From Sporolactobacillus sp. Y61 (lineage in GTDB: Bacteria; Bacillota; Bacilli; Bacillales; Sporolactobacillaceae): DNA of 64,000 nt. Shown here piece after piece: positions 6,101 to 33,660 of the stretch. The position numbers and the translations under genes are program-made. The notes beneath the pieces were generated by a model. It did not search any database, was not told where the DNA came from, and was given only the letters and a program-made list of their open reading frames with translations. The first letter of the stretch is position 1; the number at the start of each line of letters is the position of its first letter. The stretch spans positions 124,001 to 188,000 of the forward strand of contig NZ_CP159510.1 in assembly GCF_040529185.1 (NCBI RefSeq). The letters are read 5' to 3'.

Positions 6101-6258
6101 ACTTTACACTCCTGTTCAGTAATTTAATTTCAAGAAACACTTATGACACCTAACATAACTAGTTAGCCATTCTTCTTACTGATTGATACAATCTCCATTA
6201 ATAAGTGGCAAAAAATAGCCGCATGATGCACCATGTTTACTTATATGACGATCTCTTA
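6101..6258 (-). promoter_or_regulatory. Upstream region of ureA
   Basis: About 150 bp between the IS256-type element and ureA. Read on the minus strand, TTGCCA (near 6210) and TATCAA 17 bp further on could be a weak sigma-A promoter; this is a reading by eye. The nearest -24/-12-like match has the wrong spacing, so I do not claim sigma-54 control of urease. No clear GlnR/TnrA box is seen. Confidence 0.3.
6251..6258. repeat. Target-site duplication, left copy (IS256-type)
   Basis: ATCTCTTA directly abuts the left inverted repeat and is repeated exactly at 7763-7770 beyond the right end. Removing the IS and one copy restores a continuous reading frame for the regulator's C-terminus (...NIEIKRSSYK-stop). 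Confidence 0.9.
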
Positions 6259-6307
6259 GGTCAAGTCTTTTTTTATGTGTAAATTATCTCAGCCAGGATA
6301 GGGTTGA

Positions 6308-7540
6308 TTATCCTGGATAAATGGCTGTCACTTTACTGGAATTAGCCACTTTGGGTTGTTTCGCTTTCCAGTCAAAATAGTCATCCATTCTCAGGTAGCG
6401 CCGGCCGTTCGACCACTTTTCGTCCTGCTCCATGAGAACAGAACCCATGAGGCGGATGACTGACTCGCGGTTAGGAAAAATACGAATGACCTGCTCCCGA
6501 CGGCGAAATTCTTCATTGAGGCGCTCCATACCGTTTGTCGTCCGCAGGCGGCGACGATACGGCTCCGGAAGTGAAAGGACTGCAGTGACATCATCAAAAG
6601 CTTCCTCCACCATTTCAGTCACTTTAGACGCTTTCTCCTGATAAGTATCCAGAAAAGACTGAAGGAGCGTACGAGCGGTTTCGATGTCTGGGGCGTGCAG
6701 AATCGCTTTTACCTGTTCAGCTCCTTCTCGCTGTAAATCATCTGGGAACCGATCGTTTACGTTGCGCAGAAAGTGAGCCTGGCACCGTTGCCATGTGGCT
6801 CCCTGAAACGCTTTTTGAACGGCACCGACGAGACCCCCATGATCATCACTGACAATCACATCGACGCCCTTCAGACCACGAGACTTCAGCCAATCGAAAT
6901 AGTTCTTCCACGCCTCCGTGCTTTCGCTGTCATCGACTTTCAGACCCAGAATCATGCGATACCCTTTCTCGTTGACGCCATAACTAATCAATACACCACG
7001 AGAACGAACACGGCCATTTTCACGCACCTTTGTATAAATCGCATCAACAAACAGAAACGGATAGCTGCCCTCCAGAGGGCGGTCATTCCAGCCATGGACC
7101 AGTGGATCCAGATGTCCGCAAAGATCCGATACGGTCGACTTCGAGAAGTCTGTGCCGCAAAGCTCTTCAGTGATGTGACTGACACGGCGTGTTGAAACCC
7201 CATTGATCACCATTTCCATCAAAGACAAAACGAGCGCTTGTTCACTGCGCTGATAGCGTTTAAAGAGATCGGTTGAAAAATGACCGTTGCGTAGTCGAGG
7301 AACGTTCAGCGAAAGCTTGCCCACACGGGTCGTTAGTTGGTGGGGATAGGAGCCGTTTCGGTAATCGGTCCGGGCCTCACTACGTTCATATTTTTCGGCT
7401 TTCAGTTGCTCACTGGCCTGCGCCTGAAGTACTTGATCTAAAATCGCCTCCAAAAGGGCATTCATGCCAGATTCTTTTGAATCGCCAAGAAATAATTGAT
7501 GCAAAAGTTGTTCATCTAGAGTAATATGTAGTTGAGCCAT
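6308..7540 (-). CDS. IS256-family transposase
   Basis: A 410-residue mutator-type transposase, intact and of normal length. It shows the RTDYRNGSY and RVGKLSLNVPRLRNG signatures of the N-terminal region, a catalytic core beginning FLFVDAIYTKVRENG (first Asp), VIVSDDHGGLVGAV (second Asp), the CQAHFLRN motif, and a C-terminal TTNGMERLNEEFRRRE containing the catalytic Glu. With clean ends and target duplications, the element is probably still functional. Confidence 0.97.
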   Translation of the reverse strand: MAQLHITLDEQLLHQLFLGDSKESGMNALLEAILDQVLQAQASEQLKAEKYERSEARTDYRNGSYPHQLTTRVGKLSLNVPRLRNGHFSTDLFKRYQRSEQALVLSLMEMVINGVSTRRVSHITEELCGTDFSKSTVSDLCGHLDPLVHGWNDRPLEGSYPFLFVDAIYTKVRENGRVRSRGVLISYGVNEKGYRMILGLKVDDSESTEAWKNYFDWLKSRGLKGVDVIVSDDHGGLVGAVQKAFQGATWQRCQAHFLRNVNDRFPDDLQREGAEQVKAILHAPDIETARTLLQSFLDTYQEKASKVTEMVEEAFDDVTAVLSLPEPYRRRLRTTNGMERLNEEFRRREQVIRIFPNRESVIRLMGSVLMEQDEKWSNGRRYLRMDDYFDWKAKQPKVANSSKVTAIYPG

Positions 7541-7657
7541 CCCTGAATCTCTCCTTTAGAATTTGGTTTTTGGTTAACTCTATTCTAACTGAGATGATGG
7601 GCTCCGGCTCATTTTCTATGAAAAAAATGACAGAGACGAGAGAGAAATGAAATCCCG

Positions 7658-7699
7658 CTGTTTTTTTGGAGGGGCTGGCCAGCCCCTCCAGAAAAACAG
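7658..7699. repeat. Long palindrome inside the IS256-type element
   Basis: Centred on GGAGGGGCTGGCCAGCCCCTCC (7668-7689), with T-rich and A-rich arms that also pair (CTGTTTTT at 7658, AAAAACAG at 7692). It lies between the right inverted repeat and the transposase start, so it is in the 5' leader of any transcript entering from outside. It could dampen read-through expression of the transposase; it lacks a 3' U-tract on either strand, so it is not a standard intrinsic terminator. Confidence 0.7.
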
Positions 7700-7760
7700 A
7701 TTCCCTGCTCACCATTTTCTCATATTCAGAAACCCTTTTTACACAATTATACGGACTCAA

Positions 7761-9071
7761 CTATCTCTTAATTTCAATATTGTATAAATGTAGTTTTTTA
7801 TATAACGTGGTTCGAGACATATTTAACCTTTTGGCCACTAGGCTAACATTGGAACCTGTTTCTTTTAAAGAATTAAGTATAACGTCCTTTTCAGATTCTG
7901 CAGAATCAATGACAATTTTTCGATCCCTATTCTCCATATTTTCATTAGGCGGTCGATAAATATAGGAATCAATATTGTGGGCGTCAATGGTTGTTTGGAA
8001 ATGTGACAAGTAATAACTTCGTTCGACAATATTGCCTAGTTCTCGAACATTCCCGGGCCATTGATGTTTTTGAAGAATTTCCAATGCCTCTTCTGAAAAC
8101 TTCTTTTTTGTGAGATATTTCCGATTTAATTTCTCCAAAAAATCCTGAGCTAACTCAGGTATATCATCTCGTCTTTCCCTTAAGGGAATTAACTCTAATT
8201 GAAACACATTTAAACGATAGTAAAGGTCTCGACGAAAATTACCTTTATAAGCGATTTCATCCATGATATTTTTATTTGTTGCAGCAATAATTCTTACATC
8301 AATCGGAATCGGTTTAAAGGATCCAATTCGTGTGACTTTCTTTTCTTGAAGGACTCGCAATAAAGTCGCTTGCAAATCCAGTGGCATTTCTCCAATCTCA
8401 TCTAAAAATACGGTACCTCCACTGGCTGTCTCGAATAAACCTGGTTTCCCTCCCTTCTTCGCACCGGTAAAAGCGCCATCAACATAGCCAAAAAACTCTG
8501 AATAAATCAGCTCCTTTGATATTGCGCCGCAGTTAACAGCCACAAACGGATTTTCTCTGCGCTCACTCTCATTGTGAATTGCATTTGCAAATAGTTCCTT
8601 TCCGGTACCACTCTCTCCAATGATGAGAACATTCGCATCTGTCTCAGCAGCCGTTCTAGCAATATTAATAGTGGTTACAAACTTACTGTTCATGCCAATA
8701 ATATCTTGAAATTTAATTATTTTATTCTCTTTGGAATTTTCTGCTTTTTTAATGTGAAAAGGTTTAATGTGGATAAGATCTGTATCCATGAAATGTTGAA
8801 GATTAATATCAAACACTTCATCTTCTACTCTCCTGCGTAAATGTTTTTCCATTGTACTGTCAAGGTGTTCTAAATGTTCGAGAAGAAGTTTAATTAATGA
8901 AGGTTTTTTACTCTGCAAATAATCAGCAACCACATTTGAAAAGATGATTTGTTGATTATGCACTAAAAAAAAGCCTTCGGTATTTTGATTCGTTTCCCTC
9001 TCCAAGATATTCTTAAACAGATTCAGTTTCTTTTGGACATTGATAAATTTAATAAAAGAATTGATAAACAT
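7761..9071 (-). CDS. 3' half of split sigma-54 activator (AAA+ and HTH)
   Basis: The open frame is 436 residues. Residues about 1-100 are linker or PAS-like ([14 protein letters not shown]). A sigma-54 AAA+ domain follows: Walker A GESGTGKE 152-159, the sigma-54 contact loop GAFTGA 199-204, Walker B VFLDEIGE 221-228. A Fis-type HTH ends the protein ([17 protein letters not shown]). The frame is open upstream of the ATG (...SSELDSLK) as far as the IS4-type element at 9084. Joined across that element it continues the sensor gene at 10695-12245, so the intact gene encoded about 955 residues. The last four residues were removed by the IS256-type insertion. Its presumed target is the divergent amiE operon. 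Whether this half is made and active without its sensor is unknown. Confidence 0.93.
7763..7770. repeat. Target-site duplication, right copy (IS256-type)
   Basis: Exact second copy of ATCTCTTA, lying inside the last codons of the regulator's 3' half. Confidence 0.9.
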
Positions 9072-9074
9072 TTT

Positions 9075-9083
9075 AAGCGAATC
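9075..9083. repeat. Target-site duplication, left copy (IS4-type)
   Basis: AAGCGAATC abuts the left end of the IS4-type element and recurs exactly at 10704-10712. On the coding strand it reads GATTCGCTT (Asp-Ser-Leu) in both regulator halves, in the same frame. Confidence 0.93.
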
Positions 9084-10703
9084 CAGCTCTGAGGAGTAAA
9101 AATTCTTCGCGATAAAATCAACAACAGCCCCCTAAATAATGCTATATATGAGATAATTTAACAGTAATAAATCCCATAATAGTGCTATTTTTTTAGGAGG
9201 TTCTTATGATTACACGGAAAGAGAAACGAGAGCAGGAGAAGAACGTCAATTATTTTCTCGAGTTTCAGAAAATATGCCATCATTTCTTTAAAGGATTCAC
9301 CAACAGGCTCAGAAAGGTCAAAGATCCGAGACATCAGAGTTATGTCACCTATGATTCAGACTTGTTGCTCTGGATGATGATCCTGAAAAATGTCTGTCAG
9401 TTCACCAGCATGCGCAGCCTGAGCAACGGACTTAATCGTGAAGAATGTATCGATAACCTGCAAAAGATGCTCGCTACTCAAGAGCTTCATGAACTGCCCC
9501 ACTATGACACGATCAACGATTTCTTGTCGCGGCTTGATCCGAAGGAGCTGGAAAACATTCGCATCGGTTTAATCCGGGAGCTCCTCAAAAAGCGGTGTTT
9601 TGAGGCCGAACGGATCGAGGGGAAGTATTGGGGGATTATCATTGATGGGACCGGGCTTTTCCACTTTAACAAGAAGCATTGTGCACATTGCCTGAAACGC
9701 GAACATACCCACAAAAAGACCGGAGAAACCTGGACGGATTACCAGCATCACGTTCTGGAAGCCAAACTGGTCGTTGGGGACATGGTGCTGAGTATCGACT
9801 CGGAATTTATAGAGAACGAGCACGAGGACGTGACCAAACAGGACTGTGAACGTCGCGCCTTCGAGCGCCTGAGCACCCGATTGAAAGCGACCTTCAAGCG
9901 TCTGCCCATCTGTATCCTGGCGGATAGCCTATATGCGTGTGAATCAGTCTTTCAGCGATGTGAGGCTAACCGCTGGAAATACATGTTTCGCTTCAAAGCA
10001 GGCAGTATTCCGAGTGTGGCGCAGGAATTCGAGGCGCTGAAAGCGCTGAAGTATCGGGGACAATCTGCAACGACCTACTGGGTGGATGACATCGCCTACC
10101 AGGAAAGAAAACTAAATGCCCTGGAAGCTACGGTTCAGGAAAAAGAAAAAGCGCACACCTTTCTGTTTCTGACCAATCTGCCCATCACGGAGAAAAAGGC
10201 AGAGGCGTTGGTAGCAGTTGGGCGAAGGCGCTGGAAGATTGAAAATCAGGGGTTTAATCGACAAAAGCACGTACAGTACGCCATTCAACACGTGAACAGC
10301 CAGAATCATCAGGCGATGAAGAATCACTATCTTCTTACACAGATTGCGGATATTTTGATGCAGTTATATGAAAAAGGGTCAAAGCTGCTCCGTACGCAAA
10401 AAAAGACGGCAAAAGAAATATCCTCAGCCCTGTTAGAAGCGATTCGGACACGCAGATTAACAGAGGAGGATATGGCTAGCCTGGTGAAACCGATGCAAGT
10501 CCGGTTCACCGGTTAAGAACAGTATATCAGAAAGGGGGAATGCCAGGCAAAGCTACAGTCAAAAAAAATTAAAAAAGGCCATCAAAATTTGGCTTGTCCC
10601 TTTTTCAAAAAAAGCGGAAAAGCAGAATTGGAAATATATGTAAAATTTAATCAGCTATTCGCATGACACGGAGGGCCTCACAAAAATTTACTCCTCAGAG
10701 CTG
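9084..10703 (+). mobile_element. Complete IS4-type insertion sequence
   Basis: A 1620-bp element with terminal inverted repeats: left end CAGCTCTGAGGAGTAAAAAT, right end read inward CAGCTCTGAGGAGTAAATTT. It is flanked by a 9-bp direct repeat (AAGCGAATC) and contains one intact DDE transposase gene. It splits a sigma-54 regulator gene between its sensor and AAA+ halves; the stop codon of the upstream half (TGA in CTCTGA) lies within the IS end. Confidence 0.93.
9206..10516 (+). CDS. IS4-type DDE transposase
   Basis: A 436-residue intact transposase preceded by TTAGGAGG (9192-9199) and ATG at 9206. It has DDE features: IIIDGTGLFHF (first Asp), ILADSLYACESVF (second Asp), and a C-terminal RRRWKIENQGFNRQK carrying the catalytic Glu. 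A HCAHC segment follows the first Asp motif. The A+T-rich stretch 10517-10683 after it is untranslated IS tail. Family placement as IS4 is by motif only. Confidence 0.93.
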   Translation: MITRKEKREQEKNVNYFLEFQKICHHFFKGFTNRLRKVKDPRHQSYVTYDSDLLLWMMILKNVCQFTSMRSLSNGLNREECIDNLQKMLATQELHELPHYDTINDFLSRLDPKELENIRIGLIRELLKKRCFEAERIEGKYWGIIIDGTGLFHFNKKHCAHCLKREHTHKKTGETWTDYQHHVLEAKLVVGDMVLSIDSEFIENEHEDVTKQDCERRAFERLSTRLKATFKRLPICILADSLYACESVFQRCEANRWKYMFRFKAGSIPSVAQEFEALKALKYRGQSATTYWVDDIAYQERKLNALEATVQEKEKAHTFLFLTNLPITEKKAEALVAVGRRRWKIENQGFNRQKHVQYAIQHVNSQNHQAMKNHYLLTQIADILMQLYEKGSKLLRTQKKTAKEISSALLEAIRTRRLTEEDMASLVKPMQVRFTG

Positions 10704-12245
10704 AAGCGAATCAAGTTGACTTGACAATTCTCTAAAGTCATCTAAATCTGCTAATATCCCTATAACACCTAAACAGTTTTTATCATGTATGATGGGAATT
10801 CCTGCAGTAACCGAATCATTTAATGATGCATAGTCATGCTGTTCCCCCTGCATAATGTAAGTTTTTTTACACGCTAGCGCCATTCCAAACCCATTTTTTC
10901 CCTTGAAATCAGATAACCAATTCGTTCCCATTCCTATTCCCTTGTTACTCAAAGGGACTTGATCATTATTCAGCTTATCGATTAATATACCGTCTGGATC
11001 CAAAAGAAAAAATTGATATTGGTAAAATTGAGGAAGCTGATATAAAAAAGGCATATAATCCTTCCATCGACTCTGCCGTACTTTCAATTGATCATCTGAT
11101 ATCACTCGCTTTTTAAATTTATTGTTAAAGAAAGATTTTTTGATAGGGAGATTCGACTGCGCATAGGACATGAACGGTGTGGGAGCAATAAGGGAATCGG
11201 ATTCCCAAACGATTTCAAAATTGCCTCTTTCAGTGATATGCCCTATTCTTGAACCTTGCCAAAGATGGTGATTATTTTCGTCAAACCGAATATAACCCTG
11301 AGGCGAATCGAAACTCGACTGGTTTAAAGATCTTCTAATTGAATCTGTATCTAATTTGTTGGCTCTTTGCACAGCGTCCTTTAATAGATAGATACTATTA
11401 TACGTATTTTGCATCACCGAACTGATAACTTTGGAGCTGTATTGTTTTTCATAGGCTTGAATAAATGTCTTATTAGACAGCGATTTCACTGTATTGAAAT
11501 AGGGAAAAGAAGAAAAAATATTTTTGCTATACTCATGATGCATGGCAGTGATTTCCGTTTCCGCTGTAATCGGACTACAAATGGGCTGTTCAAAACCATT
11601 CTGATAAAACTGTTGATAGAACGATACAGCACTGTCCCCAACTAGTGTCGAAAATACAACATCCGGTTTTAAATACTCGATTTCACTTAATACTTGTTCA
11701 AAATTCTGTGTTCCTAATGAAGCATACGATTCTTCGTTCACTCTACCACCATTTATTTTTAACAACTCATGCATATGCTGATTTGTAATTCTTGGAAAGA
11801 TATAGTCTGATCCTACAAGATAGAATGACATCCCCAAATGAGAGATAATCCAAGGAATAAAAAATTGCAATTGCTGATTGGGAAGAGCACCAGTGTAATA
11901 AATCCAGTTATTTTGTTCGTTTCCTTCATATAGAGTTGGATAAAACAGAAGAATATTGTATTGTTTTAGAACAGGAATGACTTCCTTTCTGCATGCAGAA
12001 GTATAAGGCCCAACAAGAATTTGAACTTTGTCTTGTTCAATCAATTTTCTAGCCTTTTCTCTAGCAAGAATTGGATCAGAAGCAATGTCTTCTACAAAAG
12101 CTTCAATCGGAAGATCATGAATTCCACCGGTTTGATTAATTTGCTGAATAGCTAGAAGGGCTGACCGATATTGTCCCACCTCGGTAATCGCTGTACAACC
12201 TGTTAAAGAAAACAAGATCCCAACTCTTATACTCTCGCTATGCAT
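10695..12245 (-). CDS. 5' half of split sigma-54 regulator (amide sensor and GAF-like)
   Basis: A 516-residue frame. Residues about 6-370 are an AmiC/UrtA/FmdD-like type I periplasmic-binding-protein fold (RVGILFSLTGCTAITE..., VGPYTSACRKEVIPVL). There is no signal peptide, so it should work in the cytosol, as AmiC does. Residues about 400-510 resemble the GAF input domain of AcoR/DhaR-type activators (FFLLDPDGILIDKL, NSVTAG-like, GVIGILADLDDFRELSS). The last residues QL and the stop come from the IS4-type element; the true protein continued into the frame now at 7761-9071. The ligand is inferred to be a short amide or urea derivative from the fold and the neighbouring amidases. ATG at 12243-12245 diverges from amiE. 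Confidence 0.9.
   Translation of the reverse strand: MHSESIRVGILFSLTGCTAITEVGQYRSALLAIQQINQTGGIHDLPIEAFVEDIASDPILAREKARKLIEQDKVQILVGPYTSACRKEVIPVLKQYNILLFYPTLYEGNEQNNWIYYTGALPNQQLQFFIPWIISHLGMSFYLVGSDYIFPRITNQHMHELLKINGGRVNEESYASLGTQNFEQVLSEIEYLKPDVVFSTLVGDSAVSFYQQFYQNGFEQPICSPITAETEITAMHHEYSKNIFSSFPYFNTVKSLSNKTFIQAYEKQYSSKVISSVMQNTYNSIYLLKDAVQRANKLDTDSIRRSLNQSSFDSPQGYIRFDENNHHLWQGSRIGHITERGNFEIVWESDSLIAPTPFMSYAQSNLPIKKSFFNNKFKKRVISDDQLKVRQSRWKDYMPFLYQLPQFYQYQFFLLDPDGILIDKLNNDQVPLSNKGIGMGTNWLSDFKGKNGFGMALACKKTYIMQGEQHDYASLNDSVTAGIPIIHDKNCLGVIGILADLDDFRELSSQLDSLQL
10704..10712. repeat. Target-site duplication, right copy (IS4-type)
   Basis: Exact second copy of AAGCGAATC, within the last codons of the sensor half (LDSL). 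Confidence 0.93.
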
Positions 12246-12327
12246 TTTTTAACACTCCTCTAAAATGAATAATCGATTAGCTTAATTATAATCTATTCAT
12301 CTAAATAATCATAATATTTTACTAATT

Positions 12328-12366
12328 TGAACGAATGTGAACAAATTGTGTCCACATGTGTCCATA
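12328..12366 (+). promoter_or_regulatory. Candidate upstream activator site for amiE
   Basis: About 40-75 bp upstream of the -24/-12 promoter is TGTGAACAAATTGTGTCCAC followed by ATGTGTCCATACG. It contains a direct repeat TGTGTCCA and a CACATGTG palindrome. The spacing is suitable for an enhancer-binding protein dimer, and the nearby split sigma-54 regulator is the obvious candidate. This is inferred from position and symmetry. Confidence 0.4.
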
Positions 12367-12404
12367 CGATATTTTAAAAATAGCCTAAAATCTGAATTTT
12401 AAAT

Positions 12405-12420
12405 TTGGCACGTTTCTTGC
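12405..12420 (+). promoter_or_regulatory. Sigma-54 (-24/-12) promoter of the amide operon
   Basis: TTGGCACGTTTCTTGC matches the RpoN consensus TGGCAC-N5-TTGC, with exactly 10 bp between the invariant GG (12407-12408) and GC (12419-12420). The amiE start codon is 57 bp downstream. A sigma-54 activator gene diverges immediately upstream and rpoN is about 8 kb away. Confidence 0.9.
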
Positions 12421-12476
12421 TTATATAAATTTAAGTGAAAAAATCACTTTATTAATCAACAATGGAGGGATTATCG

Positions 12477-13472
12477 ATGCCAGTTGGTACTATTTCTAGT
12501 TCAAGGGATACTGTTGGTATTGCTGTGGTGAATTATCGCGTACCGGTTCTAGAGTCAAAGGAGGAAGTCTTAGCAAATTGTCATCGGATTGCAGATTTTG
12601 TTGAAGGCACAAAGTTAGGTTACCCTGGATTGGATTTAATTGTATTCCCTGAATACTCCACACAAGGTTTCCACCCTACTAAATGGAGAGACCTCTGCAC
12701 CACTGTTCCTGGACCCGAAACCGATATTTTTTGTGAAGCTTGTCGGAAGAATAAGGTTTGGGGTGTTTTCTCAATCACCGGAGAAATAAATCCTGTCGGT
12801 AATCCATTTAATTGTTTTATTCTTATTGATGATAAAGGAGAAATCAAGCTCAATTATCATAAAATTAATCCTTGGGTCCCAAAAGAACCATGGTATCCTG
12901 GCGATGAAACGATGGTCATTAAGGGGCCAAAAGGGCTAATGATCGGCGCAAATGTCTGCTACGATTCCAACATGCCGGAAATTGTGCGTGACACAGTTAT
13001 GAAAGGTGCGGAACTCGTTGTTCGAATCCAGGGCTATATGTATCCTTCAAAGGAACAGCAAATAAAAGTAGCCAGTGTTCGTGCTTGGGAAAATAATGTT
13101 TACTTCGTTGTTGCTAATATGGCTGGCCGTGATAAAGTGTATTCTTATTTCGGTCATTCTAACATTATTAATTTTGATGGCACGACATTAGCAGAATGTG
13201 GCACAACACCTGATGAGGTAACTTATTCCGAACTGTCCATTTCTGCCATCCGCAATGCGAGAAAAAATTGGACTGCAGAAAATCAAATCTTTAATTTAAC
13301 ACACAGGGGCTATACTGCCGTTAAAAACGGTGTCGCAGAAAGTCCTTATACCTTTTATAAAACCTGGGCTGAAGATCCAGAAAAAGCCAAAACGATTTGC
13401 GAATCTTTGACACGCAATACACCTGGACAACCTGTTGAAGAATTATCTGATAATACGCTGCTAAATAGATAA
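12477..13472 (+). CDS. amiE: Aliphatic amidase AmiE
   Basis: Nitrilase-superfamily amidase hydrolysing short aliphatic amides to the acid and ammonia. The catalytic triad is Glu59 (VFPEYSTQG), Lys129 (NYHKINPW) and Cys161 (ANVCYDSNMPE). The N-terminus ISSSRDTVGIAVVNY is very close to known AmiE proteins. I choose ATG at 12477 (331 aa) because GGAGGG at 12464-12469 is well placed; the frame's ATG at 12462 lies on the Shine-Dalgarno itself. First gene of the operon amiE-permease-amiF behind the sigma-54 promoter. Exact substrate range (acetamide, propionamide) cannot be read from sequence. Confidence 0.95.
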   Translation: MPVGTISSSRDTVGIAVVNYRVPVLESKEEVLANCHRIADFVEGTKLGYPGLDLIVFPEYSTQGFHPTKWRDLCTTVPGPETDIFCEACRKNKVWGVFSITGEINPVGNPFNCFILIDDKGEIKLNYHKINPWVPKEPWYPGDETMVIKGPKGLMIGANVCYDSNMPEIVRDTVMKGAELVVRIQGYMYPSKEQQIKVASVRAWENNVYFVVANMAGRDKVYSYFGHSNIINFDGTTLAECGTTPDEVTYSELSISAIRNARKNWTAENQIFNLTHRGYTAVKNGVAESPYTFYKTWAEDPEKAKTICESLTRNTPGQPVEELSDNTLLNR

Positions 13473-13671: not shown

Positions 13672-15384
13672 ATGGAAACTACAACTCCTGTTAAAATAAC
13701 AAGAACGTTTAATAAATGGGTAAACAATCCCGTATTAGAGGACTACGCGTTACGTTATGCCCCTCGATCCTTCCGGAAATTTTCAGAATCCGCTGTTGCA
13801 AATTCAGCACTTGGTGGGATTGCTTTTCTCGCTAACTTTGCCATCGGAGCATCAGTTACTATTGCTTATGGTTTTTCTAGCGCATTTTGGGGAATCCTCG
13901 CTGCCGGACTTGTTATTTTTCTAACAGGCATTCCAATTTCTTATTATTCAGCGAAATACAACGTGGATATGGATCTTCTAACACGCGGGTCAGGATTTGG
14001 TTATCTAGGATCCACACTGACATCACTCGTTTACGCGACCTTCACTATCATCTATTTTGCTACAGAAGGGGCTATCTTAGCCCAGGCATTGGATCTCTAT
14101 TTTGGAATTCCCCTTGGAGTAGGCTATCTAATCGGTGCGATTGTCGTTATTCCAATCGTTACCTATGGTATGACTTTACTTTCTCGGGTGCAAACGTGGA
14201 CTCAGCCTTTATGGATTGTTCTGATGATTGCACCACTAATTGGTATCTTGGTGAAAGATCCACAATCATTAGCAGCATGGACAAATTTTGGTGGAAATTC
14301 ACCTTCAGGATCAGCTTTTAATCCATTGTTTTTCGCTCTGTCCGCCGGCGTTGTTTTATCCCTTATTACACAAATAGGCGAACAAGTGGATTATCTGCGA
14401 TTCATGCCGGAACGAAAACTAAAAAATCACAAAATTTGGTTATGGGTAGTCATCCTTGCAGGTCCAGGTTGGGTGATTCTCGGTGCCTTTAATATGCTTT
14501 GTGGTTCATTATATGCTTCTTATATTGCACCATCAGTTGGGCTTACCGCTGCCGTTGAACCTATACAACAATTTATTCATGGATTTGGAACATTTATACC
14601 CGGCACATTTCTTGTTTTAACAATCGCAACACTTTTCGTTGTATTATCCCAGATGAAAATCCAAGTCACTAACGCCTATTCCGGTTCGTTGTCTTGGTCG
14701 AACTTTTTCTCTCGGCTCCTTCATTTCCACCCCGGGAGAGTCGCGTGGCTTTTCCTGCAGGTAGCGATTGCTTTAGCAATCATGGAAGCAGGGATGTTTA
14801 ACTTTCTAAATGCTGTTCTTGGCTTCTACTCGAATGTGGCGGTTGCATGGATAGGTGCTATCGTCTCTGATCTTGTCGTGAATAAATCAATACTTAAGAT
14901 AAGTCCAAACTATATCGAGTTTAAAAGAGCGCATCTTTATAATTTCAATCCGGTAGGTTTTGGTTCGATGATTATTGCTTCTATTGTTTCAATCATCGCC
15001 TATTTTGGATTGCTCGGGCCAGTTTTGCAGGCCTTCTCACCATTCTTGTCACTCGTATTAGCCTTTATATTAGCACCCATTTTTGCCATCGCTACAAAGG
15101 GTAAGTATTATATTGCACGAGAAAATCCAATGTACGCTACCAATCAAGAAACAGCTTCAACCATTCACAAGCCTTTAGAACACGGACATAATCATGTCCA
15201 TTCAAATAACGATGGCGTCGAAACCTATACTTGCTCCGTTTGTCACTATGATTATGAACAAGAAGATATGACATTCTGTCCATTTCATGATGGGATGATC
15301 TGCTCTCTCTGCTGCAGTCTTGAAAAAAATTGTCACGATATGTGTAAGACTGAAAAAGTGTTGAATGATTTATCTGCGAAATAA
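13672..15384 (+). CDS. NCS1-family permease with Cys/His-rich tail
   Basis: A 570-residue membrane protein of the nucleobase:cation symporter-1 (purine/cytosine permease) family with about 12 hydrophobic segments. The opening WVNNPVLEDYALRYAPRSFR and SESAVANSALGGIAFLANF are family-like. From about residue 495 the protein continues into a soluble tail with a His cluster (EHGHNHVH) and Cys pairs (TCSVCHYDY, CPFHDGMICSLCC, CHDMC) suggesting a zinc- or metal-binding module. NCS1 proteins are usually about 420-500 residues, so the tail is extra. Lying between amiE and amiF, it may import amides or another nitrogen substrate; this is inferred from context only. Confidence 0.9.
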   Translation: METTTPVKITRTFNKWVNNPVLEDYALRYAPRSFRKFSESAVANSALGGIAFLANFAIGASVTIAYGFSSAFWGILAAGLVIFLTGIPISYYSAKYNVDMDLLTRGSGFGYLGSTLTSLVYATFTIIYFATEGAILAQALDLYFGIPLGVGYLIGAIVVIPIVTYGMTLLSRVQTWTQPLWIVLMIAPLIGILVKDPQSLAAWTNFGGNSPSGSAFNPLFFALSAGVVLSLITQIGEQVDYLRFMPERKLKNHKIWLWVVILAGPGWVILGAFNMLCGSLYASYIAPSVGLTAAVEPIQQFIHGFGTFIPGTFLVLTIATLFVVLSQMKIQVTNAYSGSLSWSNFFSRLLHFHPGRVAWLFLQVAIALAIMEAGMFNFLNAVLGFYSNVAVAWIGAIVSDLVVNKSILKISPNYIEFKRAHLYNFNPVGFGSMIIASIVSIIAYFGLLGPVLQAFSPFLSLVLAFILAPIFAIATKGKYYIARENPMYATNQETASTIHKPLEHGHNHVHSNNDGVETYTCSVCHYDYEQEDMTFCPFHDGMICSLCCSLEKNCHDMCKTEKVLNDLSAK

Positions 15385-15447: not shown

Positions 15448-16449
15448 ATGGGAAGTATTGGAAGCATGACGAAACCAAGTGAAGGATTTCTTGCCGCTCT
15501 TATTCAATATCCGGTGCCAGTTGTTGACTCTCGAGCAGACATTGACAAACAAATTAAACAAATCGTAAAAATCCTTCATTCAACGAAGGCCGGATATCCC
15601 GGAGTTGAACTCATAGTATTCCCAGAATACAGTACCCAAGGATTGAATACGAAAAAATGGACAACTGATGAATTTCTCTGTTCGGTACCAGGTCCTGAAA
15701 CAGACATCTATGCCAAGGCCTGCATGGATGCCGGAGTGTTTGGTGTCTTTTCAATTATGGAAAAAGATCCAGAAGGCGGTGCCCCTTTTAATACCTCAAT
15801 AATTATTAATCCCGAGGGAGAAATCGTATTAAAATATCGAAAACTTAACCCGTGGGTTCCTGTTGAACCATGGCAAGCAGGCAATTTAGGGTTGCCGGTC
15901 TGTGAGGGACCGGGTGGAAGCATATTATCAGTTTGTATTTGCCATGATGGGATGTTCCCGGAAATCGCGAGAGAAGCAGCTTACAAGGGTGCCAATGTGC
16001 TGATCCGAATTTCCGGATATAGCACACAAGTCAACGATCAATGGATATTAACGAATCGTTCAAATGCATGGCAAAATTTAATGTACACACTGTCTGTCAA
16101 CTTGGCCGGATACGATGGGACATTCTATTACTTTGGAGAAGGTCAGGCGTGCAATTTCGATGGAACAACATTGGTGCAGGGTCACCGAAATCCATATGAA
16201 ATTGTCACAGCAGAAATTTATCCGAAATTAGCTGACCAGGCTCGATTAGACTGGGGACTAGAAAACAATATCTATAATTTGGGGACACGTGGGTATGTAG
16301 CAACCCCTGGTGGAGTCAAAGAAAATCCTTATACCTTCATCCAGGATTTGGCTGAGAACAACTACAAATTACCTTGGGAAGACAAAATTAAGATTAAGGA
16401 TGGTTCAATTTACGGCTATCCAGTTAATAAGGAAATGAGCAATAAATAA
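15448..16449 (+). CDS. amiF: Formamidase AmiF
   Basis: Nitrilase-superfamily formamidase (formamide to formate and ammonia), 333 residues. It opens [14 protein letters not shown], as in Helicobacter AmiF. Triad: Glu60 ([15 protein letters not shown]), Lys132 (KYRKLNPW), Cys165 ([11 protein letters not shown]). Long stretches such as [19 protein letters not shown] are AmiF-specific and separate it from AmiE. AAGGAGAG precedes ATG at 15448. Third gene of the amide operon. Confidence 0.96.
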
Positions 16450-19978: not shown

Positions 19979-21286
19979 TTACCTGATCTCTCTCCGCTCA
20001 ACAGTTGAACCTATCCCGCATTCTCGGCGATATTTTGATACAACACGTCTTGAACATTGCAATCCTTGTTCCCCGAGCAAGTCGACCAGTTTTATATCGG
20101 CAAGCGGTTTTTTCTTATCTTCATTATTAATCCATGTCCGGATCAAAGACTTGATCTTAAAAACTGAAGCAGTACCTGTTCGTGTTTCAATCCCTTTGAC
20201 AAAAAATCTTTTTAACGGATAAAGGCCGTATGGCGTCTGAACATACTTATTAGCTACAGTCCGACTGACAGTCGATTCAGCCACTTGAAGTTGTTTCGCC
20301 GCTTGGTTCATTGTTAATGACTGGAGATATTTTTCGTCTCCGGACAGAAAATAAAGTCGCTGATGCTCCATGACCAGTTGAGCAAGAGCAATAATCGTTT
20401 GTCTACGTTTGGAAAGACTTGACACCAACCAGTTGGCTTCATTCATTTTTTTACGCAGATAACTCTTGGTTTCATCATCTGCATTCTTAAAATACAACTC
20501 GAACTCAGAGCGAGCAATCGTCACTTTTGGCAGGTAACGATCTTCTAATTCCAATGCTAGATTATCCCCATTCTTAATAATTGACATATCAGGAACAACA
20601 TACTGGACTGATTCTTTATGAAAATTACGGGCAGGTGCAGGATCAAGCCTCCGGATCTCCGAGACCGCTTTCTTAACTGATTCCTCCGTTACATTCAACG
20701 ATTGACAAAGCCCCGTCCAGTCTTCTGTCAAAAAGTAGTTACTATATTCTGAGATAATCGTCTCTGCTAGTTGATTGCGGGTTTCTCTCCTCCTGAGCTG
20801 AAGAAGCAGACAATCGGTAAGAGACCGGGCACCAATGCCAGCCGGATCAAGCGACTGAACAGCCACAAGCGCCTGTTTCATACCGTCCCGATTCAATCCG
20901 GAATTTCTGAGTACCTCTTCAGGCTCCACATCTAAGTATCCATTATCATTCAGACTATCGATCAGTAGATCCGCAGCCATTAAGTATTCTTTGTCGACCT
21001 TCAACATATGAAGATCCCGATGCAGCCGTTCACGAAAATCAACCGTCTGAGCCAGTGTTTCTTCAAGCACATCGGTTGTACTTTTAGTTTGGTCTCTACC
21101 CGAATAGGAGAAATAATCAGCCTGGCGATCCGAATCTGCAAAGTTAAGTAATGGATTCTCAAGACTCTTTTCAAGAAGAATGTCTGCCAATTCCAGATTA
21201 TTATATTGCAGCAACTTCACTGACTGATACATCGCGGGTGCCATTCTTAATTGCTGGGACTGTTTCTGAACGAGTTCCAGGCTCAT
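19979..21286 (-). CDS. rpoN: RNA polymerase sigma-54 factor RpoN (SigL)
   Basis: Sigma factor recognising -24/-12 promoters and requiring AAA+ activators. The 435-residue product has the Gln-rich region I (QKQSQQLRMAPAMYQSVKLLQ), the core-binding region and DNA-binding HTH (TMNQAAKQLQVAESTVSRTV), and a C-terminal RpoN box variant (SRRVVSKYR; consensus ARRTVAKYR). ATG at 21284-21286 (MSLELV) is preferred because AGAGGTGA is then 7 bp upstream; the ATG two codons earlier touches that site. It lies between the sigma-54-dependent amide and prd operons. Confidence 0.96.
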   Translation of the reverse strand: MSLELVQKQSQQLRMAPAMYQSVKLLQYNNLELADILLEKSLENPLLNFADSDRQADYFSYSGRDQTKSTTDVLEETLAQTVDFRERLHRDLHMLKVDKEYLMAADLLIDSLNDNGYLDVEPEEVLRNSGLNRDGMKQALVAVQSLDPAGIGARSLTDCLLLQLRRRETRNQLAETIISEYSNYFLTEDWTGLCQSLNVTEESVKKAVSEIRRLDPAPARNFHKESVQYVVPDMSIIKNGDNLALELEDRYLPKVTIARSEFELYFKNADDETKSYLRKKMNEANWLVSSLSKRRQTIIALAQLVMEHQRLYFLSGDEKYLQSLTMNQAAKQLQVAESTVSRTVANKYVQTPYGLYPLKRFFVKGIETRTGTASVFKIKSLIRTWINNEDKKKPLADIKLVDLLGEQGLQCSRRVVSKYRRECGIGSTVERREIR

Positions 21287-21469
21287 CTTCATTCACCTCT
21301 TTGCTTACCATTATATCAGAAAATAGTGATAATTTTTACAGGATACTTGTGTAATGTTTTTTATAAACGCAGAATGTTCCAACTACCAAACAGTAGATTA
21401 CTTGAATATATTCACCAGCTGGTTGTTATCTATACCGGCGTTAGAAAAACTAGCCCTTACGAAGTGCGG

Positions 21470-25133: not shown

Positions 25134-25856
25134 TTAATTGTGTCTATATTCATAAGGAAGAACTCTCATCTGTCCAAATGTATCCATTTCTTCAACTGCT
25201 TTGAGCGTATCCTTCAAAATCGCTGTCTGCATCTCAATGTTGTTAGGCTCACCTGCGTTGGAACCAATTGGGACATGGGGTGCAGTGATTCGAGGCGCTC
25301 CCTGTTGTTTCGCTATCGGAGGCAGAGCAGCAATGATTGCCGTTGCAATGCCGGCGGCTTCAACAGCCCGTTCAACGATGGTTGCCGAACGATGACACGT
25401 CCCGCAGCCGCCAGTAAATAGTGCGATATCTACCCCCTCATCCTTAAGGATTTGCGCAATAGCTGGCCCGGTTTCACTCTTGAATTTTTCCACGTTGCCA
25501 CCGCCGCCCATAAAGCCAATCATTGTTGGTGCAAGTTTGCCAATATATCCTTGGGCTTGTAATTCTCTCAGACGATCAATGGGTAACATCGAATTGATAT
25601 CTTTATTGACATCACTGTTATCATATCCGCCATGACTTACCATCATTTCTGAGGTCGGTACCTCTGATGGAATCTTTCGGAACGAATAATCTCCTGATAG
25701 AACAAATCGTTTCTGAGATTTCAGATGGACACCTCCTGCGGTACATAAAGCCACTGTACATTGATTTAATGGTTTATTTAAGTCTGTCCATACTGGTTTT
25801 GGTGTAATTGGAACAAAAATCTCCGACTTTATACCTCTAGCAACTGTTAATGTCAT
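25134..25856 (-). CDS. prdB: D-proline reductase subunit PrdB, cysteine form
   Basis: A 240-residue homologue of PrdB, which with the two PrdA-derived chains reduces D-proline to 5-aminovalerate. Typical segments are GKLAPTMIGFMGGGGNVEKF and HVPIGSNAGEPNN. The redox motif reads GGCGTCHRSA with Cys151 and Cys154; in clostridial PrdB the second position is selenocysteine. The codon for Cys154 is TGT (complement of 25395-25397), not TGA, so no recoding is needed. The C-terminus is complete. It lies 17 bp after the small gene. Confidence 0.95.
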   Translation of the reverse strand: MTLTVARGIKSEIFVPITPKPVWTDLNKPLNQCTVALCTAGGVHLKSQKRFVLSGDYSFRKIPSEVPTSEMMVSHGGYDNSDVNKDINSMLPIDRLRELQAQGYIGKLAPTMIGFMGGGGNVEKFKSETGPAIAQILKDEGVDIALFTGGCGTCHRSATIVERAVEAAGIATAIIAALPPIAKQQGAPRITAPHVPIGSNAGEPNNIEMQTAILKDTLKAVEEMDTFGQMRVLPYEYRHN

Positions 25857-25873
25857 TATTTTTTCCCCTTTCT

Positions 25874-26074
25874 TTATAAAACCTGAATATAGCTTAGATA
25901 CACTTGAATCGTCTGACCAACCTGAAGCTGTTTATCAGTGATGACACATCTCATCGGAACTTGAATGATCCCCATACGACCCTTAAGCGTTACCTTGACA
26001 CCGAGATCGGTAACTTCTATGATTTTGCCAGGTAACAGGGTTGGTGTGAGTTCATAATTCACAGACAGCCACAT
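25874..26074 (-). CDS. Small prd-operon protein (CBO2463/CBO2479-like)
   Basis: A 66-residue protein (IIEVTDLGVKVTLKGRMGII, then QVPMRCVITDKQLQVGQ). It resembles the short beta-rich CBO2463/CBO2479-type proteins found in clostridial proline reductase clusters. It sits 8 bp after prdA and 17 bp before prdB, so co-translation is likely. No catalytic residues are evident and its role in the complex is unknown. Confidence 0.8.
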   Translation of the reverse strand: MWLSVNYELTPTLLPGKIIEVTDLGVKVTLKGRMGIIQVPMRCVITDKQLQVGQTIQVYLSYIQVL

Positions 26075-26082
26075 CCTTTATC

Positions 26083-27816
26083 TCAGTTATGAACAAGTTT
26101 CTGGTTTCCCTCAACCACGTCCACTGACCATTTATGGTTTGCTGGTTCGATCGGAATTCCTGCCATTTTCGTTTTCAACATGAGTAGAGCACGTTCGGCA
26201 TCCGACTGGCACAGCGTACTGTCGCCAAGAATTTCATTTTCAAATCCTTCTTTGTCTTTATTCAGTTCAACCATGGCATCCATATATTTGTTGCCGACGA
26301 CTAATTGTCCCTGATAAGCACTGAAAGAAACGCCCACGACTTCTATACCTCGGCTGCCAATCTGTTCGATATTTTCCGCAAAATCGATATGATTGTTTCC
26401 AAACCCTTCAGTTGTAACGATGGCTCCTTCTACATTCAACGCTTCTGCTAAAGCACCTAACCGAGCGGAAACAAAAGACTTTTCGTCATTTACCTGTGGA
26501 CTGCCGATAAAAACGATACCAGCCAGATCAATTTCATCATCATTTGCCATCAAATTAACCAATGGCTCCCGGAAATAATGACGGGTGTCCTCTTTTGTAG
26601 CGGGGCCGATACACGTCAGCGCATGAATCCCACCATCTCGTACTTCATTCGGAGAAAGAACGACGGGAACATTGCCAAGGTCAACATTGCGTCGCCCGCC
26701 TTTAACGCCTGCCGGCTCAACTGGAAGGATCACATTGTCATGCATCGCCCCCTGACCCATAATTTCCTTGACAAGTACGACACGTGGTCTGCCTGGCTTT
26801 TTCCAGTCATGAAATACATCCTCTTTGATACAGGCTTTAGATGGCGCCTTTTTCAGAACTTCACGGATTTCCTGAATAATATAATCACAGGCTTTATGAG
26901 CAGCGTAAGGACCACGTCGCTCCATACCGGTATTTGCTTGCACCGTTACATTGACCCGGACAATAATATCATTTACATCCGGGCAACCCGGGCGTCCGAA
27001 GCGAATCTTCTCATCAAGATACCCTTCGCAAGAACCAAACTCGTGGACTTGAACGCCTTCTTCATCGATACCGGTCAGTACGACGACGACACCATTCATC
27101 ACGTGAGTCCTTCCTGCCCCTAACGTGCCCTCCACCTTAGTTGCAATTGGAATAACGTCCATGATCGTGTTCGAATATACATGACGATTTTCCGGTGTTA
27201 TTATGTCCATGTCTACTTTCTTAACGAGGGGATCTGCTTTCAGGGATTCTTTACAGAGTCCCTTACGAATCGTCAGAATGCCGTTTTCATAATCCGTCTG
27301 TGACCCTAGATTAACTTGCTTGACTTTAAATTCTCTTTGAGTCAGCGTGCGAAGTGCTTTTTTCTCTTTTTTCTCCGGCTTTTTCTCAGATGTCTGCGGA
27401 GGAACGAAGGACAATCCGTTATTTATCCAATCAGTAGGAAGTTCAATTTGTCCTTTCAGTTCATTAATATTAAACTTAATAACGCCCTTTTGATCTTGTC
27501 CTTGTTCTGTTGCCACTGTTATAGAGTGTTCAGACCCTTGCGTTTCTGCTTTGTGAGTTATTTCGGTATAATGGCTGACTATTTTCGGTGTTAAAGGGGT
27601 CATTGCATCTGCATCTTGTTCCAAGGTCGCTCCTATGACTTGTCCGATAGCTAACGAATCATCAGGTACCGTCAGGAGACCAGATTCCTCGAGTTCGAGG
27701 AAAAGAGTCGGATCCTCGAGATCGGACGCAGAAATAATGGTTCCCTTTTGTCTCAGGCAACAAAGTACCGCTGGATCGTTTTTATGCTGGTTGACTGTTT
27801 CACTGGAAATTGACAT
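26083..27816 (-). CDS. prdA: D-proline reductase proprotein PrdA
   Basis: A 577-residue precursor that is cleaved to two chains, with a pyruvoyl group formed from cysteine at the cleavage point. The site is visible: GGIHALTCIGPATKED with Thr401-Cys402, giving chains of about 401 and 176 residues. Other conserved segments are GTLGAGRTHVMNGVVVVLTG and EIMGQGAMHDNVILPVEPAG. A Lys/Glu-rich linker lies at about residues 143-155. ATG at 27814-27816 has AAGGAGAAGG upstream. It follows prdC by 59 bp. Confidence 0.96.
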   Translation of the reverse strand: MSISSETVNQHKNDPAVLCCLRQKGTIISASDLEDPTLFLELEESGLLTVPDDSLAIGQVIGATLEQDADAMTPLTPKIVSHYTEITHKAETQGSEHSITVATEQGQDQKGVIKFNINELKGQIELPTDWINNGLSFVPPQTSEKKPEKKEKKALRTLTQREFKVKQVNLGSQTDYENGILTIRKGLCKESLKADPLVKKVDMDIITPENRHVYSNTIMDVIPIATKVEGTLGAGRTHVMNGVVVVLTGIDEEGVQVHEFGSCEGYLDEKIRFGRPGCPDVNDIIVRVNVTVQANTGMERRGPYAAHKACDYIIQEIREVLKKAPSKACIKEDVFHDWKKPGRPRVVLVKEIMGQGAMHDNVILPVEPAGVKGGRRNVDLGNVPVVLSPNEVRDGGIHALTCIGPATKEDTRHYFREPLVNLMANDDEIDLAGIVFIGSPQVNDEKSFVSARLGALAEALNVEGAIVTTEGFGNNHIDFAENIEQIGSRGIEVVGVSFSAYQGQLVVGNKYMDAMVELNKDKEGFENEILGDSTLCQSDAERALLMLKTKMAGIPIEPANHKWSVDVVEGNQKLVHN

Positions 27817-27875
27817 TTTCCTTCTCCTTTTACAAAGTGATTGGTAAATAATTAAAATGATACGATTTCACTTTT

Positions 27876-29159
27876 TTAGTGAAGCTTCCGAATAAGATGT
27901 AGACCCATGGCACGCATCGCACTGTCCGTTACGTGATGCACATGAAGATGGAGCTTGGGTGCAATCTGCATCACTGTATTGGTACAATCGCTGCAATTGC
28001 CAATCAATACTGCTTTTGCCCCAGCCTTTCTTAGTTTGAGCAGTCGATCAGCCTGGCCGGGGCAGACACCGGGATTTTGGCATCTGAGCGCACCACGGGC
28101 TTTTACAGCATATTTACATTTTTGCACATCGACGACGTCTCCCCCCATCTCATAGGCCATTTCCTTCATCCGAGTTTCATCGGCACTACAAGCACAAACG
28201 AGTAGGCCAATGGGTGAGCGTTCTTTCAGGAAGGGCATTGTAACGATAATGCCACCACTTGTCTTAGTCACCACATCATCCAGTGTCACTCTGTGGCCGG
28301 TAAATGGACCACCCATCAGAATTTCACCATAATCTCCATCGATTCCACCGACCGATTCGATTAAATCACCGATGCGCGTGCCAATAGGTACATCCATAAG
28401 GGGAATTGATTTAGCCCCTCCATACAATTTTCCAGCAATCGTTAAATTTTTGGAAACGGCCGGCCGACCAAGTTCGACAGCCTGTGTAACACGAGAAAGG
28501 GTTTCCGAATTAATGACAATAGCATTAGCGGTAATGACACGTTCCTCCGGAGGAAGCAACTTGCCGAGAATATCACGAATCAGTGCCCTTTCCTCACCCA
28601 CAGGGTATAAGTCAGGCATGAGAAAAACGGATACACGGTCATCGTTAATGGCTTCTTTTATAAGCGATACGGCTTTTTTATGTTTGGCCTTGATCGCAAT
28701 GACGCCACGTGCCGCATCCACAGCTTCCATAGCGTAGAGCAGTCCACGATAGACTTCATCGGGGTTCGATTCAATCTGAGCAATATTGTGTAAGAGTATT
28801 GGCTCACATTCGGCCGCGTTAACAATCACCGTTCCGCCGGATATCTTCTGGCTTAGTTTGATTCCGGTTGGGAATCCTGCGCCCCCCATCCCGACGATCC
28901 CTGCTGAACGGACCCGCTCTGCAATCGTTCCAGGCCGGAGCGATTCAAACTCGTCTTTCTCGGGTTTGTCTCCCTTGATTAGAATCGCTTCGGGCGTCAC
29001 CTTGATGACTTTGCCGGAAACACTTGCGTGCAAATCTGCTCCCAGACCATTTGCGCTAGCAATCCGACTGCCCCTTTTAACGACATCTCCCTCCTTTACG
29101 CACGGACTATCCGGATTACCGATGTGCTGTTTTAAAAGGAGTTTATAAATTTGAGTCAA
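27876..29159 (-). CDS. prdC: Proline reductase electron transfer protein PrdC
   Basis: A 427-residue RnfC-like protein thought to pass electrons to proline reductase. The N-terminus has a biotinyl/lipoyl-like barrel (GDVVKRGSRIASANGLGADL), then the nucleotide/flavin region (GIVGMGGAGFPTGIKLSQK). The C-terminal part has Cys clusters (LLVCACSADETR, VQKCKY, GALRCQNPGVCPGQADRL, GNCSDCTN). In clostridial PrdC one cysteine-type position may be selenocysteine; here all are Cys codons. It overlaps prdF by 4 bp (ATGA). Confidence 0.93.
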   Translation of the reverse strand: MTQIYKLLLKQHIGNPDSPCVKEGDVVKRGSRIASANGLGADLHASVSGKVIKVTPEAILIKGDKPEKDEFESLRPGTIAERVRSAGIVGMGGAGFPTGIKLSQKISGGTVIVNAAECEPILLHNIAQIESNPDEVYRGLLYAMEAVDAARGVIAIKAKHKKAVSLIKEAINDDRVSVFLMPDLYPVGEERALIRDILGKLLPPEERVITANAIVINSETLSRVTQAVELGRPAVSKNLTIAGKLYGGAKSIPLMDVPIGTRIGDLIESVGGIDGDYGEILMGGPFTGHRVTLDDVVTKTSGGIIVTMPFLKERSPIGLLVCACSADETRMKEMAYEMGGDVVDVQKCKYAVKARGALRCQNPGVCPGQADRLLKLRKAGAKAVLIGNCSDCTNTVMQIAPKLHLHVHHVTDSAMRAMGLHLIRKLH

Positions 29160-30184
29160 CTATGTACCTCCCTTCCGACTATGCTCGTTAAACCATATTC
29201 AAATGGATCCTGGTCATCAAAAAGCAGTCTGTTTTCTCCCGTTACATAAGCTCGCCCAGTAATTTCGGGAATAACCGCCGGATAATCTTTAACAGTCGTT
29301 TCTTTCAAAGCGCATCCCTTGAACCGGGTACCTGTAATACTTTCATTCACAAGATATTCACCGATCTTCAGCTTTCCTTTTGCAAAGAGCTGGGCAATTT
29401 TCGCACTCGTTCCTGTCCCACAGGGTGAACGATCAACCTGCTTTTCCCCAAATACAACAACATTCCGCATGGTCGCGTCGGCTGATTGCGCCGGCCCATA
29501 GAATTCCACCAGATCGACTGAGTGAATGTCGGGAAGCAGAGGATGCCGGATTTTAACTTGTCGGTTAACGGCATTTCGTATGGCAATGCCTTCCTCCAGT
29601 AGTTTGTTTAAATCGTCTCTTACAAGCGAGATACCCATTTTCTCCGCATCGACCAGCGCGAAAAAGTTACCACCGAACGCAATGTCTAACTGAATTTTCC
29701 CTAATTTGGGAACATGGATGTCTACATCTGACCTGTAAAGAAAAGCCGGCACATTAATAATACTGACTTCCTTTGCCCTGCCATTCTCCACTTTGACCTT
29801 TGTGTGGATCAAACCCGCAGGTGCCTCCAGTGTTACGTACGTAAAAGGCTCAGTAACCGGCACTAATCCGCGATCAACAGCTACTGTTGCGACACCCATC
29901 GACCCATGACCACACATGTTCAGGTAACCCCCGCCATCTAAAAATACGACACCTAAATCCGCTTCTCGGCGAGTAGGCATCAGAAGCACGGCACCGAACA
30001 TATCCTTATGTCCCCGTGGCTCGTTTATGACGGCACAACGAAGATGGTCATAATACTTCTTGAGATAATTTTTCTTTTCCATCATGGTCTCCCCGTCAAC
30101 TTTCGGAAACCCCTCCAAGATAATTCTTGTGGGTTCGCCCATTGTATGCGAATCAATCGCAAAAAGGCTTTTTCGATAGAGCAT
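29156..30184 (-). CDS. prdF: Proline racemase PrdF
   Basis: Interconverts L- and D-proline, supplying the reductase substrate. The product is 342 residues from ATG at 30182-30184 (MLYRKSLFAIDSHTMGEPTR), preceded by GGGAGG 7 bp away. Both catalytic cysteines of the racemase family are present: Cys91 in NMCGHGSMGV and Cys255 in SPCGTGTSAK. The longer frame to 30241 is ruled out because it overlaps the -24/-12 promoter. First gene of the prd operon. A 4-hydroxyproline epimerase is the alternative within the family; the operon argues for proline. Confidence 0.94.
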   Translation of the reverse strand: MLYRKSLFAIDSHTMGEPTRIILEGFPKVDGETMMEKKNYLKKYYDHLRCAVINEPRGHKDMFGAVLLMPTRREADLGVVFLDGGGYLNMCGHGSMGVATVAVDRGLVPVTEPFTYVTLEAPAGLIHTKVKVENGRAKEVSIINVPAFLYRSDVDIHVPKLGKIQLDIAFGGNFFALVDAEKMGISLVRDDLNKLLEEGIAIRNAVNRQVKIRHPLLPDIHSVDLVEFYGPAQSADATMRNVVVFGEKQVDRSPCGTGTSAKIAQLFAKGKLKIGEYLVNESITGTRFKGCALKETTVKDYPAVIPEITGRAYVTGENRLLFDDQDPFEYGLTSIVGREVHS

Positions 30185-30230
30185 CGATGTCCTCCCTTCC
30201 ATCCTGACTAGCGGGTTCATAATTAAATAA

Positions 30231-30246
30231 GCAACTTTCATGCCAA
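30231..30246 (-). promoter_or_regulatory. Sigma-54 (-24/-12) promoter of the prd operon
   Basis: On the minus strand, TTGGCATGAAAGTTGC fits TGGCAY-N5-TTGC with 10 bp between GG and GC. The prdF start codon lies 47 bp downstream. The sigma-54 activator gene prdR diverges from this region. Candidate activator sites, A+T-rich repeats such as GTGTATAACATGATTAAACA, lie at about 30285-30325. Confidence 0.9.
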
Positions 30247-33655: not shown

Positions 33656-33660
33656 GAACT

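Follow-up and report, generated by a model that had tools for sequence, protein, structure and literature searches.

We wanted to understand whether two neighbouring minus-strand frames of Sporolactobacillus sp. Y61 are the remains of one gene, and what this gene would control. The window, by which we mean the whole analysed stretch of 64,000 nucleotides (contig NZ_CP159510.1, positions 124,001 to 188,000), carries the frames 10695-12245 (516 aa) and 7761-9071 (436 aa) on the two sides of an insertion sequence (IS), as the first-pass annotation had reported. The features of the locus are listed below.

7761..9074, minus strand: 3' part of the regulator gene, with the rest of the linker helix, a PAS-like region, the sigma-54 AAA+ domain (GAFTGA) and a Fis HTH; the longest ATG frame is 7761-9071
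9075..9083: target duplication, copy 2, 9 bp, AAGCGAATC, direct repeat
9084..10703, plus strand: insertion sequence, 1,620 bp, perfect 17-bp inverted ends, one of 8 genome copies
9206..10516, plus strand: transposase, 436 aa, DDE_Tnp_1 type (open reading frame and Pfam), IS4-like but under the curated IS4 cutoff
10704..10712: target duplication, copy 1, 9 bp, AAGCGAATC, direct repeat
10704..12245, minus strand: 5' part of the regulator gene, with the AmiC/UrtA-like binding domain (residues 1 to about 363) and a GAF-like region, 514 native residues (open reading frame, profiles, alignments and the model of a relative)
12406..12420, plus strand: sigma-54 -24/-12 match TGGCACGTTTCTTGC, perfect 10/10, before the amidase
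12462..13472, plus strand: aliphatic amidase (NCBIfam PRK13286, 454 bits against 427)
13672..15384, plus strand: putative transporter, no Pfam or NCBIfam match at E 0.01
15448..16449, plus strand: formamidase (NCBIfam PRK13287, 605.9 bits against 406)

The regulator gene is split by an insertion sequence

The two frames are one broken gene. The element that separates them (9084-10703) has perfect 17-bp inverted ends, CAGCTCTGAGGAGTAAA, and is flanked at 9075-9083 and 10704-10712 by a 9-bp direct repeat, which reads GATTCGCTT on the coding strand. Both the complete element and its duplication had been proposed earlier and were found as described. The final two residues (QL) of the 516-aa frame are encoded by the IS. 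The joined frame has (1542 + 1314)/3 = 952 codons including the stop, which gives 951 residues (514 native + 1 + 436) and not the 955 that had been suggested. The IS sits after native residue 514, that is at about residue 518 of the intact relative L015, within a long helix. The perfect ends, the target duplication and the uninterrupted homologues over the same junction (see below) agree with a single gene cut by an IS. Genes are commonly lost in this way, and as a disruption the case is an ordinary one. We found no second copy of the regulator elsewhere in the genome of the strain, where the sensor half has one match.

This genome (one contig, 3,224,419 bases) contains 8 copies of the element, 98.6-100% identical to the window copy. 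In-register direct repeats of 9 bp were present at seven of the eight copies and of 10 bp at one (L003). Each flanking repeat has its own distinct sequence, which excludes chance. Among the other copies three share one and the same sequence, while 17-22 aligned differences separate the window copy from each other copy. The element therefore moved recently, and the window insertion is not necessarily the latest.

The transposase passes the cutoffs of Pfam DDE_Tnp_1 and DDE_Tnp_1_assoc, and the element thus combines a DDE_Tnp_1 transposase with inverted ends and a target duplication, as expected in the IS4 family. With NCBIfam IS4_1 it scored 43.9 bits against a cutoff of 115, so we regard it as only loosely IS4-like. 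The former label "IS4-type" is therefore right in domains, ends and duplication, but not at the curated cutoff. No match to the same IS was found in the plasmids searched. Another transposase, of the IS256 type (about 6257-7762), lies inside a repeat whose end, at 7762, falls within the stop codon of the regulator; pieces of this repeat recur in a same-species genome at 96-100%, one piece at 72%.

Intact homologues are widespread in Bacilli

Uninterrupted homologues, on which the single-gene model of the first-pass annotation depended, were found, and their single frames span the junction. Searching 58 genomes, including that of the strain itself, with the first half, we obtained three relatives in which the gene is a single frame (958, 947 and 950 aa) and, as in the window, stands divergent to an amidase. 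The alignment of the intact relatives was continuous across the window break. A protein database search with an intact homologue, confined to proteins of about 526-1,670 aa, gave 210 relatives, 120 of them listed; with this size range stand-alone receptors could not appear among the 120. Both halves were matched by 117 of the 120 listed homologues. The closest protein among the matches listed has 955 aa and is 77 and 78% identical to the two window halves. In 9 of the 12 long homologues that could be measured the gap between the halves was exactly one residue, as the empty site predicts; in the remaining three the spacing was 1, 2 or 4 residues longer.

Further, we scanned 397 genomes of the order with the sensor domain (E<=1e-60) and obtained 55 places in 50 genomes. 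Of these, 18 are single frames (768-990 aa), 36 are shorter (343-454 aa), and one, in the window, is the sole split gene. Both halves were matched in all 17 of the single frames that were examined as loci (17 of 18). The 14 short-frame loci that we inspected (13 distinct genes) look like UrtA transporter subunits. A search with the truncated first half (E<=1e-120) gave 9 proteins, among which only the window's own was near-identical; one of them, P0123 of Fodinisporobacter (415 aa), is a stand-alone receptor without an obvious signal peptide. Damaged copies of the regulator occur in two Terrilactibacillus genomes: that of sp. S3-3, with a completeness rating of 75% and 10% contamination, has several breaks in the frame, and that of T. 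tamarindi has a rearranged remnant.

Judging from these sequences, the fusion of an AmiC-like sensor with a sigma-54 AAA+ domain and a Fis HTH is widespread in Bacilli, so its description as an unusual architecture did not hold. It exists in a long form of about 950 aa with a GAF/PAS-like middle and in a short form of about 760-820 aa, and most of the proteins are labelled "transporter substrate-binding protein" in the database. Among the matches listed from open-access literature, judged by titles and the starts of abstracts, there was no description of the fusion. On balance we favour the view that Bacilli control many amidase operons, and some nitrile operons, by an undescribed family of one-chain AmiC-type sensor/sigma-54 activators, which would replace the AmiC-AmiR antiterminator pair. 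The family would come in two sizes, of which one has a GAF/PAS-like relay and the other has none, and the strain with the IS-split gene would be a natural knock-out.

Domain composition and predicted structure

Residues 1 to about 363 match Peripla_BP_5 (Pfam, 384.6 bits, cutoff 27), and by eye the N-terminus has no signal peptide, which agrees with the earlier description of a ligand domain of the AmiC/UrtA kind that lacks a signal peptide. The predicted activator part was recognized as well: the Sigma54_activat AAA+ domain scored 228.7 bits (cutoff 20.2) and contains GAFTGA, and the C-terminal Fis-type HTH scored 36.9 bits with HTH_8 (cutoff 22). The best NCBIfam match of this half is PrdR, below the PrdR cutoff. 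PADLOC matched the second half to RtcR/PspF-type CARF activators, through AAA+ and HTH only.

We used a structure model of L015, an intact relative of 956 aa (mean pLDDT 83.4, pTM 0.47); given the pTM, the folds of the single domains can be trusted more than the way they are placed relative to each other. In the predicted order the binding domain comes first and the AAA+ and HTH come last; between them lie two mixed domains, at about 388-504 and at 551-624, with a long helix (505-547) between the two. Foldseek related the modelled sensor to AmiC and urea-binding proteins and the engine to sigma-54 activators. Pieces of L015 matched GAF with E 0.0056 and PAS with E 0.003, both under the curated cutoffs, and the window's own protein pieces gave no GAF or PAS match at that level. 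The middle domains are thus weakly assigned as GAF-like and PAS-like. The GAF-like domain proposed earlier is retained in this weak sense, from the relative only, and a PAS-like part, which had been missed, follows it.

The divergent amidase operon and its sigma-54 promoter

Sites were scored with the sigma-54 -24/-12 consensus. The site at 12406-12420 is the sole 10/10 match in the window; five further sites reach 9/10. The likely true start of the amidase is ATG 12477, which follows GGAGG and is where homologues begin. We take the putative transporter at 13672-15384 to be NCS1-like.

We compared 25 loci of relatives, 16 from named organisms and 9 further short forms; the nine short and most of the long forms are genes of the order scan. 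An amidase, aliphatic or GatA-type, is present in the divergent run of 23 of the 25 loci, in 20 of them an aliphatic one, though the loci are mutually related (two from one genome, two from one species) and counts over them are therefore not independent. The link between the regulator and an amidase, assumed from the window, thus extends to its relatives. Only a GatA-type amidase was seen at L126, L129 and L131; the loci without an amidase nearby are L098 (none found) and L105 (a remnant). Both regulator halves lie in one frame in 23/25 loci. The regulator frame of L104 is broken, and that of L092 ends early, its protein P0009 having no HTH_8 match.

On the divergent strand, 22 of the 25 loci have a near-consensus sigma-54 sequence match (at least 9/10) no more than about 1 kb away, against 0.75 expected by shuffling; loci without it are L099, L100 (best 8/10) and L105. 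The order amidase-transporter-formamidase is common to the window and five loci, those of Terrilactibacillus laevilacticus, Heyndrickxia ginsengihumi, Weizmannia acidilactici and two H. coagulans. Genes that we take to be AmiB-like and AmiS-like occur in the divergent runs of 13 and 7 of the 25 loci, respectively. The 7-mer ATGAACA was found in 11/21 intergenic regions (1.55 expected). As a shared activator site it is a lead only, since it was picked as the second best of all 7-mers and counts of the related TGAACA/TGTTCA miss most short-form loci.

In Aneurinibacillus danicus (L095:5132-8358) a GatA-type amidase stands in the divergent run behind the fused regulator, and two further genes there are presumably nitrile hydratase subunits. 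This gene content suggests that nitrile use is under the same regulator in this species.

Amide or urea as the ligand of the sensor

By overall score the sensor is closest to urea-binding proteins (8tg1, 281 bits; UrtA, about 230; AmiC, 210). With the curated UrtA profile TIGR03407 it scored 350 bits, below the cutoff of 492.75. The pocket motifs are YTS and YPT in the window and YMS and YPT in AmiC. At the two positions where the alignments are in register, the window and AmiC have Y and T, and UrtA has W and V or I. Y81 and T104 of the window protein align with Y83 and T106 of AmiC. We assume that the residues equivalent to AmiC Y83 and T106 line the pocket, and AmiC T106 reportedly tunes specificity for amide size. 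All 14 UrtA-like frames (13 distinct genes) have WTS and YPV, a urea-type pair that the window regulator lacks.

Motifs were counted in the 79 of the 120 listed proteins with an exact match to GAFTGA or GEFTGA; the remaining 41 were left out. The first motif is YTS in 33/43 long forms and YTS or YMS in 33/36 short forms; the other cases were unmatched or mis-hit by the search pattern, save one short form with WTS. The second motif is YPT in 31/43 long and 24/36 short forms and YPA in 4/43 and 8/36. The pocket residues of the sensor are of the AmiC type and not of the UrtA type, with a signature that is not uniform among homologues.

The sensor half could instead read urea, or some other small molecule similar to an amide, in which case the regulator would couple the use of urea and amides. 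The top scores of the sensor agree with this, as does the urease operon just downstream in the window; urease genes also lie in the divergent runs of L092-L094. We consider it unlikely, however, because the pocket residues agree with AmiC and differ from 14/14 UrtA-like frames, and because the divergent run contains an amidase in 23/25 loci and ureC in only 3/25.

Consequences of the insertion

Taken together, the split, the intact homologues, the domain identity, the promoter match and the gene order make it likely that the regulator is an activator of the amidase-transporter-formamidase operon from its sigma-54 promoter, which would respond to amides and would be inactivated here by the IS. 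In the intact protein the cytoplasmic AmiC-type receptor part would bind short amides, and the change on ligand binding would be relayed through the GAF-like, long-helix and PAS-like parts to the sigma-54 AAA+ engine. The Fis HTH would position the activator upstream of the divergent -24/-12 promoter, and the AAA+ ring would open this promoter and switch the operon on. With the gene cut within the linker helix, the operon would most likely no longer be inducible, since sigma-54 promoters need an activator; a passage of PMC7057263 describes the ATPase activity of the activator as essential for opening them.

The first half has its own ribosome site (GAGGAG) and may still be made, without AAA+ and HTH. 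No ribosome-binding sequence is visible before ATG 9071 of the second half. A promoter scan of 8900-12500 gave 7 promoter-like sites where shuffled sequences gave 9.8 on average, which is no more than chance. As for an outward promoter from the IS to the C-terminal half, we saw two weak chance-level matches inside the element (minus strand, 9663-9635 and 10550-10521, 9/12 each) and none at its end, and this candidate was rejected. With no visible ribosome site before the second half and promoter matches at chance level, the operon is probably not inducible.

The first-pass annotation had left two outcomes, silencing of the operon or release of the AAA+ half from its sensor. Silencing is the likelier. 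Release would mean that the C-terminal half (PAS-like, AAA+, HTH) is made alone and drives the amidase operon without amides, the sensor being gone. N-terminal truncation makes some sigma-54 activators constitutive, and the C half is an open frame with AAA+ and HTH; its ATG is three bases beyond the duplication, and the two weak sites in the IS point towards it. These sites are, however, at chance level; they lie about 0.56 and 1.45 kb away from the ATG, on the strand opposite to the transposase gene, and ATG 9071 has no visible ribosome site, so that we consider release improbable. That the halves still cooperate as two proteins is very improbable: both stay open and the break falls in a helix predicted to link two domains, but the second half lacks a clear expression signal, and neither the two-protein form in any other genome of the order scan nor the truncated first half in any other database entry was found. 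We therefore keep to the reading of an amide-responsive activator that the IS has inactivated.

Comparison with known regulators

The regulator resembles AmiC of the Pseudomonas amiEBCRS system in being a predicted cytoplasmic amide receptor with the same fold (from the model of the intact relative), agreeing pocket residues and a likely part in amidase control. It differs in its wiring: AmiC is a separate protein, which, according to a passage of PMC5259723, releases the antiterminator AmiR when acetamide binds, whereas here receptor and sigma-54 activator form one chain (one frame in 23/25 loci). UrtA shares the Peripla_BP_5 domain and the fold. The UrtA-like proteins, however, look like transporter subunits, with WTS/YPV in 14/14 and three N-termini that look exported, while the regulator has YTS/YPT and, by eye, no signal peptide.

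With sigma-54 activators of the PrdR, AcoR and DmpR types the protein shares AAA+ with GAFTGA and the C-terminal Fis HTH, next to a -24/-12 promoter sequence match. The sensors of those types are PAS, GAF and V4R, whereas here a type-I periplasmic-binding-protein domain leads the chain. The same receptor fold thus seems to be wired to two outputs before the same enzyme, antitermination in Pseudomonas and sigma-54 activation in Bacilli. The comparison suggests a likely role for a protein mostly labelled as a transporter component. The fused regulator looks like a widespread, little-noticed switch, with a potential use in Gram-positive strains as a switch that responds to amides.

The locus lies in a strain-variable region

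The same-species genome G220 matches the first ~38 kb of the window only by repeats and short pieces. A 173-bp match at 33657-33829 may mark the region edge. The flanks match G220 at 97-100% on different contigs, on the left up to about 123,312 of the strain's contig (G000:C1) and on the right from window position 42920. Since G220 lacks the region and keeps the flanks, we place the urease, the regulator, the amide operon and more in a strain-variable region of about 34-38 kb. G220, the one same-species genome compared, lacks the locus and hence offers no uninterrupted allele or empty site.

The same-genus genome G006 keeps the amidase block at 78 and 74% DNA identity. It gave no match to the sensor half, and the 13-kb contig with the block has no regulator and no such sigma-54 site, so the amidase operon can exist without the regulator. 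Upstream of the G006 amidase (L054:3795-5811) there is a 448-aa frame, transposase-like by eye, and a small gene that we take to be XRE-type.

A second rpoN (sigma-54) gene, 19979-21292 on the minus strand, also lies in the strain-variable region. It is 46% identical to the other one at G000:C1:1701491-1702789; none of the other 57 genomes searched has more than one rpoN. The genes at 25134-31971 are presumably a D-proline reductase cluster, in which 30286-31971 would encode a PrdR-like sigma-54 activator. A 9/10 sigma-54 site lies by this cluster at 30245 (minus strand), with the extra rpoN nearby.
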